A program made the position numbers and the translations under genes. A stretch of DNA of 64,000 nucleotides from Halarcobacter bivalviorum (GTDB taxonomy: Bacteria > Campylobacterota > Campylobacteria > Campylobacterales > Arcobacteraceae): NCBI RefSeq assembly GCF_003346815.1, contig NZ_CP031217.1, positions 558,001-622,000 of the forward strand, read 5' to 3'. Each line of letters begins with the position of its first letter. The stretch's first letter is position 1. The notes under the pieces are model-generated. The model was not told the DNA's origin. It did no database searches and saw nothing but the letters and a program-made list of their open reading frames with translations. This document shows positions 8,818 to 40,965 of the stretch, one piece after another.

Positions 8818-10605
8818 TTAGATTTTAAGAACTGCCATGAAAGCCTCTTGCGGCACATTTACTTTACCAATTGCCTTCATTCTTTTCTTACCAGCTTTTT
8901 GTTTCTCTAAAAGCTTTCTTTTTCTTGTAATATCCCCACCATAACATTTAGCAGTAACATTTTTACCCATAGACTTAACAGTCTCCCTAGCAATAATAGT
9001 ATTACCAATAGAAGCTTGTACTGAAACTTCAAAAAGCTGTCTAGGGATTAGTTCTTTAAGTGCTTTAATAAACTCTCTACCTCTAGATACTGCTTTTTCT
9101 TCAGGTACAATAATAGAAAGTGCATCAACAACTTCTCCAGCAACTCTAACATCAAGTTTTTTAAGGTTTCCAGGTCTAAATCCAACTGGCTCATAATCAA
9201 ATGAAGCATAACCTTTTGTAGTAGATTTTAATTTATCATAAAAATCCATTACAATTTCATTCATTGGAATATCATATTCAAGTAAAACTCTTTTACCTAG
9301 ATAATCCATTTTATTTTGAATACCTCTTTTATCATTTAAAAGCTTAATTACATTTCCTAAAAATTCATCAGGAACTAAAATTGTAGCTTTTACATATGGT
9401 TCAAAAATAGTTTGAATATAGTTTGGCTCAGGAAGTTCTGAAGGATTTTGAATAATAACTCTTTCTCCATCAGTTTTTTCCACTTCATATACAACTGTTG
9501 GTGCTGTTGCAATTAAATCAAGGTTAAACTCTCTTTCTAGTCTCTCTTTGATAACTTCCATGTGAAGCATTCCTAAGAAACCTGTTCTAAATCCACTTCC
9601 AAGTGCAGCTGAAGATTCTGGCTCAAAAGAGATTGAAGAATCATTTAGTTGTAACTTAATTAAAGCTTCTCTTAAATCTTCAAATTTATCTGTTTCAATT
9701 GGATAAATTCCTGCAAATACAAATGGTTTAGCAGGTTCAAATCCATCAATTATTTCTGAAGTAGGATTTTTTGCATCTGTCATTGTATCACCAACAGCAA
9801 TCCCATCAAGTGTTTTAAGTCCAAGAACTACAATTCCAATTTCACCAGTTTTTATTTCAGTTGTTTTTTCTCTTTTAATTGGGTGTGGATACATTAAGTC
9901 TAATACTGGATGTTCAACTTTTGTATTCATCATCTTTAGTACTTGACCTTTTTTAATAGAACCATCATAAACTCTTACAAGTGCTAAAGCTCCAAGATAG
10001 TTATCAAACCATGAATCATAAATAAGAGCTTTTGTAGGAGCATTCTCATCTCCTGTAGGAGCTGGAATTCTATCAACAATTGAATCTATTAACTCTTTTA
10101 CTCCAAGACCAGTTTTAGCTGAAATTAGATTATGTTCTGTACAGTCAAGCCCAATAGCTTCTTCTGTCTCTTCTAAAACTCTCATTGGGTCAGCACTTGG
10201 TAAATCAATTTTATTTACAACTGGTAATAATTCTAAATCATTATCTAAAGCAATATATACATTTGCAATAGTTTGTGCTTCAACACCTTGAGTTGAGTCT
10301 ACAATTAATAAAGCACCTTCTGATGAAGCTAAAGACCTACTTACTTCATATGAGAAGTCAACGTGACCTGGAGTGTCAATAAGATTTAAGACATACTCTT
10401 GTCCATCTTTCATATATTTTAATCTTACACTTTGAGCTTTAATAGTAATACCACGTTCTTGTTCAATATCCATAGTATCCATCATCTGAGAAGACATTTC
10501 TCTATCTGTAACAGCTCCACACTCTTGGATAATTCTATCAGCTAATGTAGACTTACCATGATCAATATGGGCAATAATACTAAAGTTTCTAATATTTTTT
10601 TGCAA
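8818..10605 (-). CDS. lepA: Elongation factor 4 (LepA), ribosomal back-translocase
   Basis: 595 residues, standard LepA length. The GTPase domain begins at once: HIDHGKST (P-loop), RGITIKAQ (switch I Thr), DTPGH and NKID. Then domain II, two alpha/beta domains and the LepA-specific C-terminal domain ending in [16 protein letters not shown]. LepA acts on the ribosome and helps translation under stress or in initiation. It is transcribed alone, and about 120 bp separate it from ompA upstream. Confidence 0.98.
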
Positions 10606-24548: not shown

Positions 24549-24592
24549 ATTATAATATTCAAGCGTAGCATTAAAATAGCATTAGCCTAGCA
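24549..24592 (-). promoter_or_regulatory. pta promoter with three TGCTA boxes at 11-bp period
   Basis: Written on the + strand: GTAGCA at 24565, ATAGCA at 24576, CTAGCA at 24587, each exactly 11 bp apart. A -10 TATAAT lies at 24549-24554 on the minus strand, 10 bp from the nearest box, so the boxes cover the -35 position. This is the layout of a PhoB/OmpR-type activator site. Confidence 0.75.
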
Positions 24593-30571: not shown

Positions 30572-30588
30572 GTAGCATTGGCATAGCA
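30572..30588 (-). promoter_or_regulatory. TGCTA box pair upstream of DUF485-actP copy 1
   Basis: On the + strand GTAGCA (30572) and ATAGCA (30583), an 11-bp period. On the sense strand this reads TGCTA-N6-TGCTA, 90 bp upstream of the start codon. No strong -10 follows at the spacing seen at pta. Confidence 0.65.
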
Positions 30589-30679: not shown

Positions 30680-30696
30680 GTAGCAACAATGTAGCA
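30680..30696 (-). promoter_or_regulatory. Second, distal TGCTA box pair upstream of DUF485-actP copy 1
   Basis: On the + strand GTAGCA (30680) and GTAGCA (30691), an 11-bp period. It lies 198 bp upstream of the DUF485 start and downstream of the actP copy 2 terminator, in a ~310-bp gap that holds no gene. Confidence 0.65.
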
Positions 30697-30793: not shown

Positions 30794-32443
30794 TTAGTGA
30801 TCAACTGCTCCTGCAGCTCCAAAACCAGTTTCAGCTCTAATATTTTGAGCTTCAAAAGCTTTTTCTTCATCTTTTGCTCTTTGAGATTTATCAGTAACTG
30901 AGAAGAACCAAATAGCAACAAATGCAGCAGTAACAGAGAATAGTGCAGGGTGTTTATAAGGGAATAATGCCTCTTTATTTCCTAAGATATCAACCCAAAC
31001 AATTGGACCAACAACAACTAAAATAACAGCAGTAGCTAAACCAACAATACCACCTAAGAAAGCACCTCTAGTTGTTAATTTTCTCCAGTAAATTGATAAG
31101 AATAGAATTGGGAAGTTAGCAGAAGCTGCAATAGCAAATGCAAGACCAACCATAAATGCAATATTTTGTTGTTCAAACGCAATACCTAGTACAACACCTA
31201 TAATACCAATAATAATTACAGCAATTTTTGAAACTCTAATCTCTTGCTCTTCAGTAGCATTAGGATTAATAACAGATGCATAAAGGTCATGAGAAATTGC
31301 AGATGCCCCAGCAAGTGTTAATCCAGCAACAACTGCTAAAATTGTAGCAAATGCAACAGCTGAAATAAATCCTAGGAAAATATTTCCACCTACAATATGT
31401 GATAAGTGAATTGCAGCCATATTATTTCCACCAAATAGTTTACCATCTACAAAGTAAGCTTGCCCTTCTGGAGAGTTTAAGAAAACAATTGCTCCAAGAC
31501 CAATTACTGCAATAACTAAATAGAAGTACCCAATAAATCCAGTTGCATAAACAACAGATTTTCTAGCTTCTTTTGCATTTCCCACAGTAAAGAATCTCAT
31601 AAGAACGTGAGGAAGTCCTGCTGTACCAAGCATTAAAGCAAGACCAAGAGAAATAGCAGAAATAGGATCAGAAATAAATCCACCTGGCTCCATAATTGCT
31701 TGACCTTTTTCATGTGTTTCAACTGCTTTTGTTGCTAATGCTTCAAAAGAGAATCCAAAATGGCTTAATACCATGAATCCCATAAATGAAACCCCAGAAA
31801 GTAGTAAAATAGCTTTGATAATTTGTACCCAAGTAGTTGCAAGCATACCACCAAAAGTTACATAAATAATCATCATTACACCAACAAGTAGTACTGCATA
31901 TTCATACTCTAAACCAAATAATACTTGAATCAGTTTACCTGAACCAACCATTTGTGCAATTAAATATAAAGTTACAACAGCTAATGAACCAAATGCAGCA
32001 AGAGTTCTAATCTCTTTTTGCCCAAGTCTATAAGCAGCAATATCTGTAAAAGTAAATTTACCTAAATTTCTTAATTTTTCAGCAAGTAAGAATAAAATTA
32101 CAGGCCACCCAACTAAGAATCCAACAGCATAAATTAATCCATCATATCCACTTAAGTATACAAGTCCTGAAATACCAAGGAATGATGCTGCTGACATATA
32201 ATCTCCAGCAATTGCCATACCATTTTGGAATCCTGAAATTCCTCCACCTGCAGTATAGAAATCACTTGCAGATTTTGTTTTTTTAGCTGCCCAATAAGTA
32301 ATACCTAATGTACCACCAACAAAAATAAAGAACATAATAATAGCTGCAATATTAAGTTCACTTTTTGATGCTTCAAAAGTAGCATCACCTGCTGCAAATA
32401 GTGCAACGGCAAAGATTGATAAAAGTGCTAATACTCTAAACAT
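30794..32443 (-). CDS. actP: Cation:acetate symporter ActP (copy 2)
   Basis: 549 residues, the same length as copy 1 and alignable end to end, with changes mostly in membrane residues and in the periplasmic loop ([20 protein letters not shown]). Signal-like start [27 protein letters not shown]. It overlaps the DUF485 stop by one base. Two full copies of the pair in tandem point to a local duplication, with conservation suggesting both are used. They may differ in affinity or substrate. Confidence 0.92.
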
Positions 32444-32757
32444 TATAATTCATCCTTTACATCTTCTCTAACTTTTTCGATTAATTCCTCAAATTCACCA
32501 TTTGCTTTTTTTACATAAACAAGTGTAGTTAAGAAACTGATGATAATAATTGCTGCCGCAATAGGGAAAGCAATTGTCATAACTCCATCTCCAGTTCTAA
32601 TTCCTAAAAGTGATGGTTCAAATGCAATAGTAAGAATAAATGCATAAAACAGTACAAGTACAAAGATAGCAAGTTTAACTGCTATACTAGATCTTTTTTC
32701 TACTAATTCTTGGTAATTAGGATTAGCTTTAATTTTCGCTACTAATTGATCATTCAT
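32443..32757 (-). CDS. DUF485 membrane protein, ActP partner (copy 2)
   Basis: 104 residues, starting [22 protein letters not shown], with two membrane helices. It lines up with copy 1 over its whole length. The start has AAGGACG upstream. The ~250-bp leader up to 33007 holds seven TGCTA boxes. Confidence 0.9.
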
Positions 32758-32940
32758 AGTCGTCCTTTCTAAAGTAATATTTTTATGTAATTTATTTTAA
32801 TAATATATAATTAAAATAATAATTCATAAAAAACATTTGAATATTATACATGAGATTATTAATTAAATCATTTTTAAGTTGACTATTAAGTCAAGTTTAA
32901 GTGAAGAAAGTCCCTAAGTAACGAATAGTTACAAGGAAAA

Positions 32941-33007
32941 ATAGCATTAAAATAGCATGCTATTTTAATGCTATGTTGGTGCTATTTTAATGCTACGAAA
33001 CTGCTAT
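32941..33007. promoter_or_regulatory. Array of seven TGCTA boxes, two facing left and five facing right
   Basis: On the + strand TAGCA boxes start at 32941 and 32952 (as ATAGCA). They are followed without a gap by TGCTA at 32958, 32969, 32980, 32991 and 33002. Every step within each orientation is exactly 11 bp. The junction forms a perfect 32-bp palindrome (about 32942-32973). It ends at the stop codon of the DnaQ-like gene. It is probably the main operator for DUF485-actP copy 2. Confidence 0.75.
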
Positions 33008-33640
33008 TTATCCAGTATAAAAAGTTGAATTTGCAGGAGATAAATCTCTTAATTTTAAAAATATCATAGATGTCATAATTGCATCATTTAGTGCATCATG
33101 TTTTCCAAGTTCAGGAATATCTAACTCTTTTAAAATCGTGTCAAATTTTAAGTCAACAAACTCATAATCAGAACTTCTTTTTTTAGTTTTAAAATACATT
33201 GATGAAACTTCAACTTGTCTATTTGGTAAAGAAACACCAATTATTTTTTTTGTATATTTTGAAATCATTGCAATATCAAATTTGATGTAATAACCTACAA
33301 TAGGTCTATTTCCAATGAATTCAAGTAATTCTAATATTGCTTCATTTGGGTCTTTCCCATTTTGTAAATCTACAGGTCTAATTTGGTGAATTTTAATTGA
33401 TTCTTCTGTAATTTTTTTTGAAGGTTTTACAAAAATATTTAGAGTCTTTCTCATCATAATTTTATTTTTCTTGATATGAACTGCTGCAATTGATAAGATT
33501 TCATCTTTTCTTGGATTTAAACCAGTTGTTTCACAATCAAGACAAACATATTCATCTTTAGGTGGAGTATCAAATAGATATTCATATTTTTTATCTATAA
33601 GATTCTTTTTTCGCCATGAGTTAATTAGATTTTTAAACAT
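33008..33640 (-). CDS. DnaQ-like 3'-5' exonuclease (copy 2)
   Basis: 210 residues with the DEDDh set intact: LDCETTGL, YYIKFDIAM and HDALNDA. It matches copy 1 at 25967 over its length. Its start overlaps the stop of the DUF294 gene by one base. The stop codon abuts the TGCTA array. Same coupling as in the first pair, so the exonuclease and the nucleotidyltransferase probably act together. Confidence 0.85.
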   Translation of the reverse strand: MFKNLINSWRKKNLIDKKYEYLFDTPPKDEYVCLDCETTGLNPRKDEILSIAAVHIKKNKIMMRKTLNIFVKPSKKITEESIKIHQIRPVDLQNGKDPNEAILELLEFIGNRPIVGYYIKFDIAMISKYTKKIIGVSLPNRQVEVSSMYFKTKKRSSDYEFVDLKFDTILKELDIPELGKHDALNDAIMTSMIFLKLRDLSPANSTFYTG

Positions 33641-35457
33641 TATGAAATCTTATCAATTTTAAATGTATAGACAATAAACTTTTTAAAATTATTAACAATT
33701 TTGAAACTATCTTTTAATAAATCCCTTTCAATTTTACCTAAAGCATGGGTATCTATTTCATTATTGATTTTTTTACCATCTTGTATTTTTTGTAAATGTG
33801 CTTTTAATCTTAAAGTATTTAATACATCAAAAGCTTCAAGTAATTCATTTGCTGTTTCATTCTCTAAAACTTTCATCTCTTGTAAAATTTTAATTCTTTT
33901 TACTGTTGTTGTCTCTCTAATTCTTTCTCTAAGACTTAAACTTCTAATACCTTGAACAATAGGGAATACACCAGTTTTTTTCACATCAATATTATATGTT
34001 TTAGTCATAAAATTTGCTACTGTACTTGGTGTATCAAAAGTAAGTGTTGCTTTTGCAAAATATGCCATAAAAACATCTTTATCATGAAGTTTATTAAATA
34101 AATCATCTTTTAAATTAATTAATAACTCTTTATCTCCTGCAACTGCAAAAGAGTCAAAAAAGATTGCTAAATCCATATAATTTTGCATATCAGGTGCTTC
34201 AATCCATCTAGCAGTCTCTCTTTTATATTCATTTACAGTTTTACACCAAAATGGATTTGATACCATAATATTACCTTCACATGGAGGATAACCAAAATCA
34301 ATTAATGTTTCAGTAATCTCCTTCATATAAGGTCTATATTGTTCCACATCAACACCATCTTTTACAACAAGAGCATTATCTTGGTCTGTTTTAATTATCT
34401 GCTCATTTCTTCCTTCACTTCCCATAACTATAAGACAAGCATCTTTTTGTAACTCTTCAGGCACTATAAATTTATAGATTTTTCTATAAACTTTTGTATT
34501 TAATTGACCAATTAAATTAGAGATATGATTTACTTTTACACCCTTTGCATTAAGAGTTTTAACAGTATCTACAAGTTCTGTACTGGCTTCTTTTAAATCT
34601 TCTAGATTTTTTGCATTTTTGATTTTTGAATCAACCACATAAGTATGGTTTGCAAAGTGAGAAAGAACATCTATTTGTTCTAAAATCCCTACCATCTCTC
34701 CTTGAGAATTTACAACACCAACTCTTTTTATATTTTTCTTAATAAGTAAAGTAAGTGCTTCAAAAAGATAGTCATCAAGATTAACACTTAAAATAGGATA
34801 AATAGCTATCTCTTCAACTGGAATGTTTAAGTCTCTACCTTCTAATAAAACTTTTATTTTAAGTAAAGAATCTGTGATAATTCCATACTCATTATTTTCA
34901 CCTTTTACAATAATTGTAGAAGTGTTTTGTTTCATTGATTTATCGATTGCATCAATAAGTTTTGTTCCTTTTTCTACAGAACAAGGAGGGTGTAAAATAG
35001 TATCTTCAACTTTTGCAATCATAAATGAAGATAATTCAGAAGCATACTCTTTATCTTTTAGAGTTTGAAATTTATTTACAAGATTATTTAAAAAGAAATC
35101 TTTAAAACCATCATTTTTTTCAATAAGTTCTAAAAATATATCTTTTTCAATTTCATAACAGATTAAATCTTCATAGACTCTAAATGAATTATCAGTTTTA
35201 CTATAAATAAGTGAGTTTGCATCAAATGAGTCTTGATAATGGTAGTCCATTAATACTTCATCTTCTTTATATTCATGAACAATTCCTTTAATAATTACAA
35301 AAAAGTGTTCGGGTATTTTTTCAGGTGTTATTAGAATCTCATCTTTTGCATAATAAGCAATATCCATATGTCTAATACACTTATCCATTTGTTCTTCAGT
35401 TAATAACTCAAAGGGATGGATATTTGAAAGAAAGGCTTTTTGGTCTCGAAGACTCAT
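33640..35457 (-). CDS. DUF294 nucleotidyltransferase with cNMP-binding and CBS domains (copy 2)
   Basis: 605 residues, same domain order as copy 1: cNMP-like (~15-130), CBS pair (~150-270), nucleotidyltransferase with MGSEGRNEQIIKTDQDNALV, helical C-terminal part. The catalytic GS, Arg and DxD-type residues are present in both copies, so both are probably active. The ~120-bp leader has no TGCTA box. It lies between the two actP pairs and the third symporter. Confidence 0.85.
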   Translation of the reverse strand: MSLRDQKAFLSNIHPFELLTEEQMDKCIRHMDIAYYAKDEILITPEKIPEHFFVIIKGIVHEYKEDEVLMDYHYQDSFDANSLIYSKTDNSFRVYEDLICYEIEKDIFLELIEKNDGFKDFFLNNLVNKFQTLKDKEYASELSSFMIAKVEDTILHPPCSVEKGTKLIDAIDKSMKQNTSTIIVKGENNEYGIITDSLLKIKVLLEGRDLNIPVEEIAIYPILSVNLDDYLFEALTLLIKKNIKRVGVVNSQGEMVGILEQIDVLSHFANHTYVVDSKIKNAKNLEDLKEASTELVDTVKTLNAKGVKVNHISNLIGQLNTKVYRKIYKFIVPEELQKDACLIVMGSEGRNEQIIKTDQDNALVVKDGVDVEQYRPYMKEITETLIDFGYPPCEGNIMVSNPFWCKTVNEYKRETARWIEAPDMQNYMDLAIFFDSFAVAGDKELLINLKDDLFNKLHDKDVFMAYFAKATLTFDTPSTVANFMTKTYNIDVKKTGVFPIVQGIRSLSLRERIRETTTVKRIKILQEMKVLENETANELLEAFDVLNTLRLKAHLQKIQDGKKINNEIDTHALGKIERDLLKDSFKIVNNFKKFIVYTFKIDKIS

Positions 35458-37783: not shown

Positions 37784-37816
37784 AGTATAATAGTTGATTG
37801 TAGCAAAAGGGTAGCA
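37784..37816 (-). promoter_or_regulatory. Promoter of DUF4212-symporter with two TGCTA boxes
   Basis: On the + strand GTAGCA at 37800 and 37811 (11-bp period). On the minus strand a -10 TATACT lies at 37784-37789, exactly 10 bp from the nearest box, the same geometry as at pta. Confidence 0.75.
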
Positions 37817-37900: not shown

Positions 37901-38563
37901 TTAAACAGAATAATATCTGTCAATTTTATAGCCTAAACCTCTGATATTTTTAATAAAATCCTCTTTTAGAGCTTTTTTTAATCTTGAAATTTCTGCTCTT
38001 ATAGTAGGATTATCAATATTTTCCCCTCCCCAAATGTCAACTCTAAATCTTTCAAAGTCAACAATCATATTGATATTTAGGGCTAAGATATGAATAATAT
38101 CTAATTGTTTTTTTGTTAGTGTTTGTGGTTCACCATTAAAATATAGAGTTTTTTCAGTTTTAGAGTAAGAGTAATTTTCTGAAAATCTAATATGAGTGGT
38201 ATTGCTTTGGTCTTTTTTTAGGATTTGATTTATTTTAATTCCTAACTCTTCTAAATGAAAAGGTTTCTTAATATACTCTCTACAGCCTAAGTCATATGCT
38301 TTTGTAATATCTTCAATATCTAAAAGTGCAGAAATGTATATTGTTGGAATATATATTTTTTTGCTATTTAGTTCTTGTAAGATTTCAAATCCATCTTTTT
38401 TTGGTACATTTATATCAAGCACTAAAAGATCAAAAGAGGAATCAACATTGTCAATTACATCTTCACCATTTGTGTAACTTTCAACCATATGCCCAATATC
38501 TTTTAAATACTCAGATATTGCATTGTTTAACATTATTTCATCTTCAAGAAGTAGTATTTTCAT
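37901..38563 (-). CDS. OmpR/PhoB-family response regulator
   Basis: 220 residues. Receiver domain (1-~118): acidic pair DE near 7-8, phospho-acceptor Asp in LLVLDINVPKKDG (~52), Thr/Ser in YISALLD and Lys in IKKPFHLEEL. The C-terminal winged helix (~125-215) has TLTKKQLDIIHIL, the recognition helix NPTIRAEISRLKKALK and RGLGYKI. Its ATG lies inside the end of the histidine kinase gene (20-bp overlap). OmpR-type regulators bind direct repeats with a ~11-bp period, matching the TGCTA boxes in front of the neighbouring acetate genes. Confidence 0.93.
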   Translation of the reverse strand: MKILLLEDEIMLNNAISEYLKDIGHMVESYTNGEDVIDNVDSSFDLLVLDINVPKKDGFEILQELNSKKIYIPTIYISALLDIEDITKAYDLGCREYIKKPFHLEELGIKINQILKKDQSNTTHIRFSENYSYSKTEKTLYFNGEPQTLTKKQLDIIHILALNINMIVDFERFRVDIWGGENIDNPTIRAEISRLKKALKEDFIKNIRGLGYKIDRYYSV

Positions 38564-40127
38564 TTATTCTAAACCTATACGTAAATTTTGTATCTCTATC
38601 GTTTGAATCAAGATTAATTATAACTAAATTTTTATCACATATTTCTTTTACTATTCTAAGTCCTAATCCAAAGCCACCACGAGAATTATTCTCTCTATAG
38701 AAGTCACTAAAGATTTTATCTTTATTCTCAATTTTGTCTGAATTTGTTTTTACAGAGAAATCGACAATATCGTCATTAAAGTAAGTAAGTTTTATATAAA
38801 TAGGTGATTTAGCTTTTGAATATTTTATAGCATTTGAAATGTTATTATCAACAATTCTTTGCAGTTCTGTTTTATTAAATTTAATATATATCTCTTCATC
38901 AATATTGTTTATAAAATATAAGTTATTTGCAGTTGCTATACTATCAAAAAAGTTTAATCTTTCATTTAAGTATTCTGAAAAATTAATATACTCTTTTGGG
39001 TAGTCAACTCTATCTTTTTTAATTAAATATGATAAGTCATCATATATATATTGAATAATCTTTGCGCCACTTTCAATATTAGATATATATTTATTTGTAG
39101 GAGTATGTCTTTTTAAAAGGTCTATGTTTGTTCTAATAATAGATAAAGGAGTATTAACTTCATGAACAGAGTTCTTTAAAAATCTTTTTTGAGAATCAAG
39201 AAGATTACTTAACTCTTTTGTTTGTTCATTTACTTTCTCTTCAAGATGTTTATTGATACCTTCTAGCATTTGGTTTTTGTCTTTAATATTATGCATAGCA
39301 TCATAAGCGTAGTTCGCAATTACTTTAAACTCTCCAAAGATAAGCCTATTTTGACTAATTCTTGTATCTGATTTTTGTGTCTCTTTAAAATATTTTCCAA
39401 TCTCTTTAACATCATTTACAATTAAAATAGTTGCATTTTTATAAATAAAAATAGAGTAAAGAACAAGCATTATTGTTAAAGACATAATTTGAAGAATATA
39501 ATTAGAGATTTTTTCATCATGCTCTTGTCTTTTCTCTTTGATTAAAGTATCAATTTCATCTAAATAGATACCTTTGCCTATTGTCCAATTCCAAGGTGAA
39601 TATGATAGGGCATAAGAGATTTTAAGAGCTTCGTCTTTTAATTCAGGTTTATACCAGATATATTTTACAAAACCACCTTTTTTATTTTGAGAAATATCAA
39701 TTAACTCTTTTATTACTCTTTTGCCTGTTGGGTCTGTGAATTCATAAAGATTTTTCCCTATATTATTTCTTGAAATAGGGTAGTATATAGAAGTTCCTTC
39801 AAAATTGTAGATGAAAACATAGTCATTTATATTTTCATCTTCTCTCATCATCTCTATTGCATGAAGAACATCATTTTTTATCTCTTCTTCACTTTTTGTA
39901 CCCTTATATTTATTATGATAATAATCTATAAATTTAACGGTTTTTTTTATATCGGCTTCTATTAAATCTTTTTGTTTACTAAAATAATCACTTTTCATGA
40001 TTTGTATTTTTTCATTAAAATCATCAAAAGCATTGTCAATAATAATAAAAGTAAATGATGATGTTAAGAAGATAATAAAGATAATACTATAAAGAATTAG
40101 GTGGTATAAAGATTTTGCACGAATCAT
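38544..40127 (-). CDS. Cache-domain sensor histidine kinase
   Basis: 527 residues from the ATG at 40127 (MIRAKSLYHL). An open frame runs further upstream but only through the antisense of tRNA genes. Two membrane helices (~8-30 and ~240-260) bracket a periplasmic Cache domain of ~200 residues with YVFIYNFEGTSIYYP, GGFVKYIWYKPE and WNWTIGKGIYLDEI, a fold that binds small organic acids. After a coiled coil comes the H-box SVHEVNTPLSIIRT, then the N box (DNNISNAIKYS) and GFGLGLRIV. It overlaps the response regulator gene, its partner. The ligand may be acetate or a related acid, judged by location only. Confidence 0.92.
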   Translation of the reverse strand: MIRAKSLYHLILYSIIFIIFLTSSFTFIIIDNAFDDFNEKIQIMKSDYFSKQKDLIEADIKKTVKFIDYYHNKYKGTKSEEEIKNDVLHAIEMMREDENINDYVFIYNFEGTSIYYPISRNNIGKNLYEFTDPTGKRVIKELIDISQNKKGGFVKYIWYKPELKDEALKISYALSYSPWNWTIGKGIYLDEIDTLIKEKRQEHDEKISNYILQIMSLTIMLVLYSIFIYKNATILIVNDVKEIGKYFKETQKSDTRISQNRLIFGEFKVIANYAYDAMHNIKDKNQMLEGINKHLEEKVNEQTKELSNLLDSQKRFLKNSVHEVNTPLSIIRTNIDLLKRHTPTNKYISNIESGAKIIQYIYDDLSYLIKKDRVDYPKEYINFSEYLNERLNFFDSIATANNLYFINNIDEEIYIKFNKTELQRIVDNNISNAIKYSKAKSPIYIKLTYFNDDIVDFSVKTNSDKIENKDKIFSDFYRENNSRGGFGLGLRIVKEICDKNLVIINLDSNDRDTKFTYRFRINENTTS

Positions 40128-40221
40128 TGCGAGTATATTCCTTGATTTAAATAACAAAAAAGAATATCTGAAATAAAATAAATAAATGATAAAAAATGTA
40201 AGAAATGTGTAAATAAAAAAG

Positions 40222-40298
40222 TGGCGCGGCTGACGAGACTCGAACTCGCGACCTCCTGCGTGACAGGCAGGCATTCTAACCAACTAAACTACAGCCGC
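40222..40298 (-). tRNA. tRNA-Asp (GTC), copy A
   Basis: 77 bases including an encoded CCA. The cloverleaf is complete and the anticodon loop reads CTGTCAC. Acceptor GCGGCTG pairs with CAGCCGC. It lies after a small hairpin with a T-run, so it may be expressed less than the other genes. Confidence 0.97.
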
Positions 40299-40309
40299 TC
40301 ACTAAAAGC

Positions 40310-40330
40310 AAAAAAAAAGCGCCTTAGCGC
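40310..40330 (-). terminator. Possible terminator inside the tRNA cluster
   Basis: On the minus strand GCGC-TAAG-GCGC followed by nine T, between tRNA-Val and tRNA-Asp of the distal block. The stem is only 4 bp. Confidence 0.55.
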
Positions 40331-40335
40331 AATAA

Positions 40336-40411
40336 TGGTGGTCGATAGTGGACTCGAACCACTGACATCTACCTTGTAAGGGTAGCGCTCTACCAACTGA
40401 GCTAATCGACC
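40336..40411 (-). tRNA. tRNA-Val (TAC), copy A
   Basis: 76 bases with encoded CCA. Anticodon loop CTTACAA; acceptor GGTCGAT pairs with ATCGACC. Confidence 0.97.
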
Positions 40412-40442
40412 AATTGATATTTAAAATGGATTTGCCATTAAA

Positions 40443-40517
40443 TGGTGACCCCTAGGAGACTCGAACTCCTGTGGCATGGATGAAAACCATGAATCCTAAC
40501 CGCTAGATGAAGGGGCC
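40443..40517 (-). tRNA. tRNA-Glu (TTC), copy A
   Basis: 75 bases with encoded CCA. Anticodon loop TTTTCAT; acceptor GGCCCCT pairs with AGGGGTC with one G-T pair. A likely substrate of the MnmA enzymes in this window. Confidence 0.97.
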
Positions 40518-40533
40518 AATTTAAATATCGAAA

Positions 40534-40609
40534 TGGTGACCCGTGAAGGATTCGAACCTTCGGCCACCTCCTTAAAAGGGAGATGCTCTACCAGCTGAGC
40601 TAACGGGTC
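40534..40609 (-). tRNA. tRNA-Lys (TTT), copy A
   Basis: 76 bases with encoded CCA. Anticodon loop CTTTTAA; acceptor GACCCGT pairs with ACGGGTC. A likely MnmA substrate. Confidence 0.97.
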
Positions 40610-40625
40610 AAATATTATAAAAAAA

Positions 40626-40702
40626 TGGCGCGGCTGACGAGACTCGAACTCGCGACCTCCTGCGTGACAGGCAGGCATTCTAACCAACTAAACTACAGCC
40701 GC
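40626..40702 (-). tRNA. tRNA-Asp (GTC), copy B
   Basis: 77 bases, reads the same as copy A at 40222-40298. Confidence 0.97.
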
Positions 40703-40714
40703 AACATTTATAAA

Positions 40715-40790
40715 TGGTGGTCGATAGTGGACTCGAACCACTGACATCTACCTTGTAAGGGTAGCGCTCTACCAACTGAGCTAATCGACC
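40715..40790 (-). tRNA. tRNA-Val (TAC), copy B
   Basis: 76 bases, reads the same as copy A at 40336-40411. Confidence 0.97.
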
Positions 40791-40798
40791 TTATTTTA

Positions 40799-40873
40799 TG
40801 GTGACCCCTAGGAGACTCGAACTCCTGTGGCATGGATGAAAACCATGAATCCTAACCGCTAGATGAAGGGGCC
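40799..40873 (-). tRNA. tRNA-Glu (TTC), copy B
   Basis: 75 bases, reads the same as copy A at 40443-40517. Confidence 0.97.
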
Positions 40874-40889
40874 ATAAATAAAATAAAAC

Positions 40890-40965
40890 TGGTGACCCGT
40901 GAAGGATTCGAACCTTCGGCCACCTCCTTAAAAGGGAGATGCTCTACCAGCTGAGCTAACGGGTC
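40890..40965 (-). tRNA. tRNA-Lys (TTT), copy B
   Basis: 76 bases, reads the same as copy A at 40534-40609. First gene of the cluster in the direction of transcription, ~40 bp from a consensus promoter. Confidence 0.97.

Follow-up and report, generated by a model that had tools for sequence, protein, structure and literature searches.

Several described systems bear on the locus considered here, an array of TGCTA boxes in a stretch of 64,000 nucleotides of Halarcobacter bivalviorum DNA (the window, meaning the whole stretch that was analysed). Sites of ArcA of Escherichia coli contain two to five direct repeats spaced 11 bp centre to centre, according to extracts of a published account (PMC3798270). 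The array is similar in its 11-bp direct repeats and in its putative assignment to an OmpR/PhoB-family regulator of carbon oxidation, but differs from the sites described in those extracts in that its boxes are near-identical, it is two-sided, it contains a perfect palindrome and it adjoins a stop codon; the ArcA repeats thus offer a precedent for the binding of boxes in rows by the candidate regulator of the window, an OmpR-type protein designated RR A. ActP, a DUF485 protein and a cNMP/CBS/nucleotidyltransferase protein all belong to the CrbS/R acetate regulon of Pseudomonas (PMC5715377, in part). CrbS/CrbR (MxtR/ErdR) resembles the present system in two-component control of acetate genes and in gene kinds that are common to the window, whereas the CrbS sensor is fused to a symporter and the window encodes an OmpR-type regulator with a Cache-domain kinase.

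BumS/BumR of Campylobacter jejuni responds to short-chain fatty acids, and BumR both activates and represses (PMC11796366, in part); its likeness to the present system, as another two-component system, is taken from the description only, in which BumS is a cytoplasmic sensor phosphatase unlike the Cache-domain kinase of the window, and no binding consensus for BumR was found in the extracts of that source. In Neisseria and Pasteurellaceae, inverted pairs of DNA uptake words serve as terminators (extracts of PMC1852404). The present locus likewise combines a protein-recognised word, an inverted pair and a terminator-like hairpin, but its word is a putative regulator box, its stem is A+T-rich and a single locus is involved. 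The individual parts of the locus are of known kinds. In the open-licence literature, no published description was found of the regulon and its promoter grammar, nor of a two-sided array fused with a terminator.

Layout and rarity of the array

Two leftward and five rightward TGCTA boxes are found at 32942-33006 (Table 1), as the earlier note had claimed, with a step of 11 bp that is exact throughout each orientation; the perfect 32-bp palindrome that it described is present where the opposed boxes touch, and the rightward boxes do extend to the stop codon of the exonuclease gene, the last of them stopping one base short of it. The placement of the array between actP2 and dnaQ2 was accurate in that it is intergenic, but its immediate left neighbour is the DUF485 gene, not actP2 itself. 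The genes on either side are both encoded on the minus strand, and therefore the leftward boxes face actP2 and the rightward boxes are antisense to dnaQ2.

The window contains ten exact TGCTA-N6-TGCTA pairs versus 0.31 expected, and 200 dinucleotide shuffles of the window gave a mean of 0.28 pairs. Five of the ten make up the array itself, inside about 70 bp, whereas no shuffle placed even two pairs within about that distance. With more than two direct repeats at 11-bp spacing, the array has the form of an OmpR/PhoB-type operator.

Besides actP1 and actP2, the window encodes pta, two ackA-type genes, a third symporter with its small subunit, two DUF294/CBS/cNMP proteins and two DnaQ-like exonucleases. 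Both ActP symporters pass the cut-off set for the subfamily model NF006903 but fall below that of the equivalog model TIGR02711 (NCBIfam).

Six of 104 genomes of the family contain opposed pairs separated by a gap of 0-14, and in five of these six the pairs are at the dnaQ2-actP2 locus. In the sixth genome (G108; L101, about 1500) an inverted TGCTA array differs in its spacers, leaves a gap of 9 and is flanked by a beta-propeller-like gene and a divergent gene. Tandem runs of at least three exact boxes are present in 17 of the 104 genomes, four in G074 and five only in the reference genome (G000, the source of the window); in G004 the seven-unit layout recurs, but with mismatches. A widespread or mobile palindrome was considered and rejected: in a collection of 84,980 species, which may omit near relatives, opposed touching pairs were found in one stretch only, which corresponds to the present locus in a near relative (L083).

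Two other repeats were observed close to the array. An inverted repeat GTAAC-N5-GTTAC lies at 32918-32932, between the array and the actP2 -10 (one in the window versus 0.03 expected), and many relatives have repeats resembling it at the same place. A palindrome TGACT-N4-AGTCA lies at 32880-32893 in the actP2 promoter and recurs in the genome (six places versus 2 for the control), one copy being 5 bp from the box pair that precedes a TRAP-transporter gene (G000:C1:79146).

Table 1. Coordinates of the array, its neighbours and related sites in the window
Feature	Position	Strand	Remarks
Three boxes upstream of pta-ackA, activating form	24549..24592	-	TATAAT at spacing 11
Box pair past start of actP1 -10	30573..30588	-	30 bp past
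Box pair upstream of actP1 -10	30681..30696	-	78 bp upstream
actP2, cation/acetate symporter	30794..32443	-	NF006903, 898.9 bits, cut-off 750
DUF485 gene, first in actP2 operon	32443..32757	-	
-10 (TATAAT) of DUF485-actP2 promoter	32843..32848	-	kept in relatives compared
Terminator-like hairpin of dnaQ2 transcript	32937..32974	-	stem 32974-32941, 15 pairs, 3 G-C; five T, 32941-32937
Leftward boxes	32942-32946, 32953-32957		TAGCA on plus strand
Leftward box pair TGCTATTTTAATGCTA, proposed distal operator	32942..32957	-	centre 101 bp upstream of actP2 -10
Perfect 32-bp palindrome, two opposed pairs	32942..32973	no strand	
Five rightward TGCTA boxes, 11-bp step	32958..33006	+	starts 32958, 32969, 32980, 32991, 33002
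dnaQ2, 3'-5' exonuclease	33008..33640	-	NF006601, 278.3 bits, cut-off 189; stop codon 33008-33010
Box pair upstream of third symporter operon	37801..37816	-	TATACT at spacing 11
RR A, OmpR-type response regulator, proposed binder	37901..38563	-	domains Response_reg and Trans_reg_C
Histidine kinase ORF, Cache sensor domain	38544..40283	-	

The TGCTA regulon and its candidate regulator

The whole genome contains 26 exact box pairs, which is only about twofold the number expected, as the shuffle rate predicts about 13 pairs in 2.68 Mb; a reversed-pattern control (26 versus 0) was set aside as too lenient because the reversed pattern contains CG steps. Twenty-two pairs fall entirely outside ORFs, counting those of 80-90 aa or longer, two are inside genes (L010, L014) and two overlap a gene end (L012, L015). 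Pairs precede pta-ackA, actP1 and actP3, and others precede genes that were named from their translations alone: a putative lactate permease, an aldehyde dehydrogenase, a TRAP-transporter binding protein and an aconitase, with a putative succinate dehydrogenase, hydrogenase and cytochrome oxidase also located downstream of pairs. The boxes are part of a predicted regulon of acetate and carbon genes. Two tandem genes for near-identical proteins of about 107-110 aa were also observed beside a TGCTA pair (L009 1673-2442; G000:C1 about 9470-10240).

In 93 of the 104 family genomes, TATAAT follows a pair at a distance of 3-33 bases. The usual activating form is TGCTA-N6-TGCTA-N11-TATAAT, the spacing being exactly 11 in 124 of 150 and 9 in 3 of 150 among the matches listed. 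Such an arrangement is typical of an OmpR/PhoB-type activator that replaces the -35 element (class II).

RR A, encoded about 5 kb from the array, is likely to be its regulator, and is named as such mainly because activating sites adjoin its gene. Linkage of this kind was assessed in 34 genomes, those of other genera that possess RR A and a listed site: in 28 of them the RR A gene has a site of the activating form no more than 200 bp away, as would be expected of an OmpR-type regulator of these sites. The window's own genus was left out of the 34 because the site before its third symporter mostly lacks an exact TATAAT; within that genus, RR A and an exact pair are 78-88 bp apart in five of the six genomes listed, the exception being G009. 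Two paralogs of RR A (G000:C1:78508-79134 and 2126019-2126663) are encoded near TGCTA pairs, at distances of 30 bp and about 2 kb, which suggests that related regulators may share one box word; a helix pattern TIR(A/S)E(I/V)(S/N)R is common to RR A and one of these paralogs and absent from the other. RR A or a close paralog (E 1e-62) is missing from 16 of the 104 genomes, several of which still carry a site; this and the two paralogs near boxes count against RR A as the regulator, and the distribution of regulator and sites across the family is at most suggestive of a link between them. Taken as an OmpR-type operator array, the locus is well supported by comparison, through its 11-bp direct repeats, the regulon, the fixed activating geometry and a matching regulator gene next to such sites.

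CrbR is a LuxR/NarL-type regulator. Membership of RR A in the CrbS/CrbR system was considered and rejected, RR A having a Trans_reg_C domain and no LuxR-type domain having been found in it. The true start of the histidine kinase gene is probably internal to its ORF, because the ORF begins within a tRNA gene. Directly upstream of the kinase gene, eight tRNA genes were observed at 40222-40965, in two near-identical sets (Asp, Val, Glu and Lys, each twice).

The locus in relatives and the dnaQ2 hairpin

The locus was compared in 20 genomes that possess a dnaQ2 ortholog with 71-100% identity (L024-L043), 16 belonging to the genus and 4 to other genera of the family, paralogous dnaQ2 rows with 47-57% identity being left out. 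The interval from the dnaQ2 stop codon to the actP2 -10 contains an intact pair in 15 of the 20, and in 14 of the 16 members of the genus. Thus the array's length, which the earlier note had proposed to follow in relatives, is not conserved at seven boxes, but an intact intergenic pair is retained in 13 of 15 relatives in the genus. Both orientations are represented in five genomes (G000, G004, G006, G010, G015), only a rightward-type pair in eight (G001, G002, G003, G005, G007, G009, G011, G014) and only a leftward-type pair in two (G012, G024); no intact pair was found there in G008, G013, G017, G020 and G023, of which G013 seemingly has no DUF485 gene of the actP2 type (best match 57%).

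Distances to the promoter were compared at 29 loci less two (L069, L079). Measured from TATAAT, the centre of the leftward-type pair is at -101 in the five genomes with both orientations and at -100 in G012 and G024, so that the seven genomes of 20 with such a pair at 100-101 bp include one from another genus, whereas the centers of pairs in genomes with the rightward type only vary from -96 to -150. The five palindromic genomes form one clade (DnaQ2 tree, support 95/92), and therefore their shared distance of -101 is partly a matter of ancestry. A further pair, always leftward-type, is located just past the -10, at +29 to +34, in nine of the 20 genomes (G003, G005, G008, G009, G012, G017, G020, G023, G024), and the five palindromic genomes have no pair past the -10. 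A pair placed beyond the start point is suggestive of repression. In G005 and G008 the pair at actP1 is instead found at -23; hence roles may differ among species.

Because the arms of the array are inverted, the dnaQ2 transcript can fold into a hairpin, and the same DNA may also act as a terminator, a dual role absent from the earlier note's reading. The palindrome hairpin is the sole terminator-like site in 32400-33700 (0.2 expected), and a stretch of 91 bases folds with -19.8 kcal/mol (z -2.72; one of 200 shuffles as good). In the reference genome a stable hairpin and a T-run follow the gene, as in an intrinsic terminator; the T-run is not general in relatives, the tails of G003, G020 and G024 being T-poor (1-3 T in 8). 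The 85 bases from the dnaQ2 stop codon fold with z of -2.5 or lower in 12 of the 20 genomes, versus 1, 1 and 0 of 20 at control offsets, and no such hairpin was found in these 85 bases in the other eight. Nine of the 12 hairpins are built from boxes or decayed boxes, and three (G017, G020, G024) from unrelated sequence. In G005 the boxes of one arm are lost, yet all 16 RNA pairs are kept, three of them as G-U. The sense hairpin is more stable than the antisense hairpin in G005 (-14.0 versus -6.3), G012 (-10.0 versus -4.6) and G003 (-15.0 versus -11.5), whereas the antisense fold has a small advantage in G000, G004 and G010 and a clear one in G017. From its fold and position, the palindrome probably forms an RNA hairpin that ends the dnaQ2 transcript. 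A known RNA element was also considered, and rejected as no Rfam family matched in 32300-34000.

Function of the array

With a rough probability of 0.5, the array is best read as an OmpR-type regulator site of the acetate and carbon regulon, in which a distal operator of actP2 is fused with the terminator of dnaQ2. Phosphorylated RR A would occupy the boxes, the tandem 11-bp spacing aligning regulator subunits in rows. The leftward pair, set at a fixed distance of about 101 bp from the -10 on its upstream side, would serve the DUF485-actP2 promoter as a distal operator, and the rightward boxes would add length or affinity to this operator. At the array the dnaQ2 transcript would form a hairpin with U residues after it, so that the same DNA would be the terminator of the dnaQ2 operon. 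That the effect on actP2 would be repression is a guess.

The suggestion that the rightward boxes might drive antisense transcription into dnaQ2 is not supported, as the array lacks the activating spacing in both directions. No TATAAT-like hexamer lies 11 bp past a pair, as it would in a class II promoter; the hexamers at that spacing are AACTAT on the leftward side and TTTTAA, CGAAAC, TTTATC and TAAAAA on the rightward side. Hexamers 9-13 bp past each exact pair near the dnaQ2 stop codon were scored in the 20 genomes. Exact rightward-type pairs, present in 13 of these, would favour activation of a transcript entering the 3' end of dnaQ2, yet in all 13, including the 12 relatives, the hexamer at spacing 11 agrees with TATAAT in no more than four of six positions. 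A TATAAA does lie 9 bp beyond the last rightward box, with TAAAAT at the same spacing in G002, G007 and G011, and spacing 9 has its few examples among the sites listed (see above), but G012 and G024 carry the reverse orientation in the same stretch, and a promoter scan of 32400-33700 is at chance level (8 versus 9.6). An antisense promoter is therefore very improbable.

If the palindrome were kept only as the RNA hairpin of dnaQ2, the boxes having little or no role at actP2, then the hairpin signal in 12 of the 20 genomes, which in G017, G020 and G024 arises from unrelated sequence, and the pairing that persists in G005 through G-U changes despite the loss of boxes would be accounted for. Such a hairpin needs no five tandem boxes in register, however, and most of the eight genomes without it (G001, G002, G007, G009, G011, G014) retain an intact pair, which makes a purely terminating function unlikely. 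It is slightly less doubtful that the array is a copying accident, in which template switching and slippage made further copies of an ancestral pair and completed the palindrome, leaving extra boxes without function of their own: the array resembles one old pair with a 22-bp copy and an inverted copy, its full length is found in one of the 104 genomes (the reference), and the palindrome is confined to one clade. Matching changes in both arms of G010 and G015 argue against such an origin, as do the leftward-type pairs that G012 and G024 hold at the same distance with no palindrome. The rightward boxes alone could be explained by a copying accident.

Within the preferred reading of the array as a regulator site, a further step may be considered tentatively, although its odds are low: one element would serve both as a two-sided regulator array and as the upstream operon's terminator, and its occupancy could alter read-through from dnaQ2 into actP2 as well as set the actP2 promoter. 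If one element does both, the box word would be under selection as DNA and, via G-U pairs, as RNA. The analysis reveals, in one bacterial family, a regulon of acetate and carbon uptake with a clear promoter grammar and a likely regulator; if the double use is true, the array would be a natural test case of one word that serves both DNA binding and transcription termination, comparable to the uptake words.
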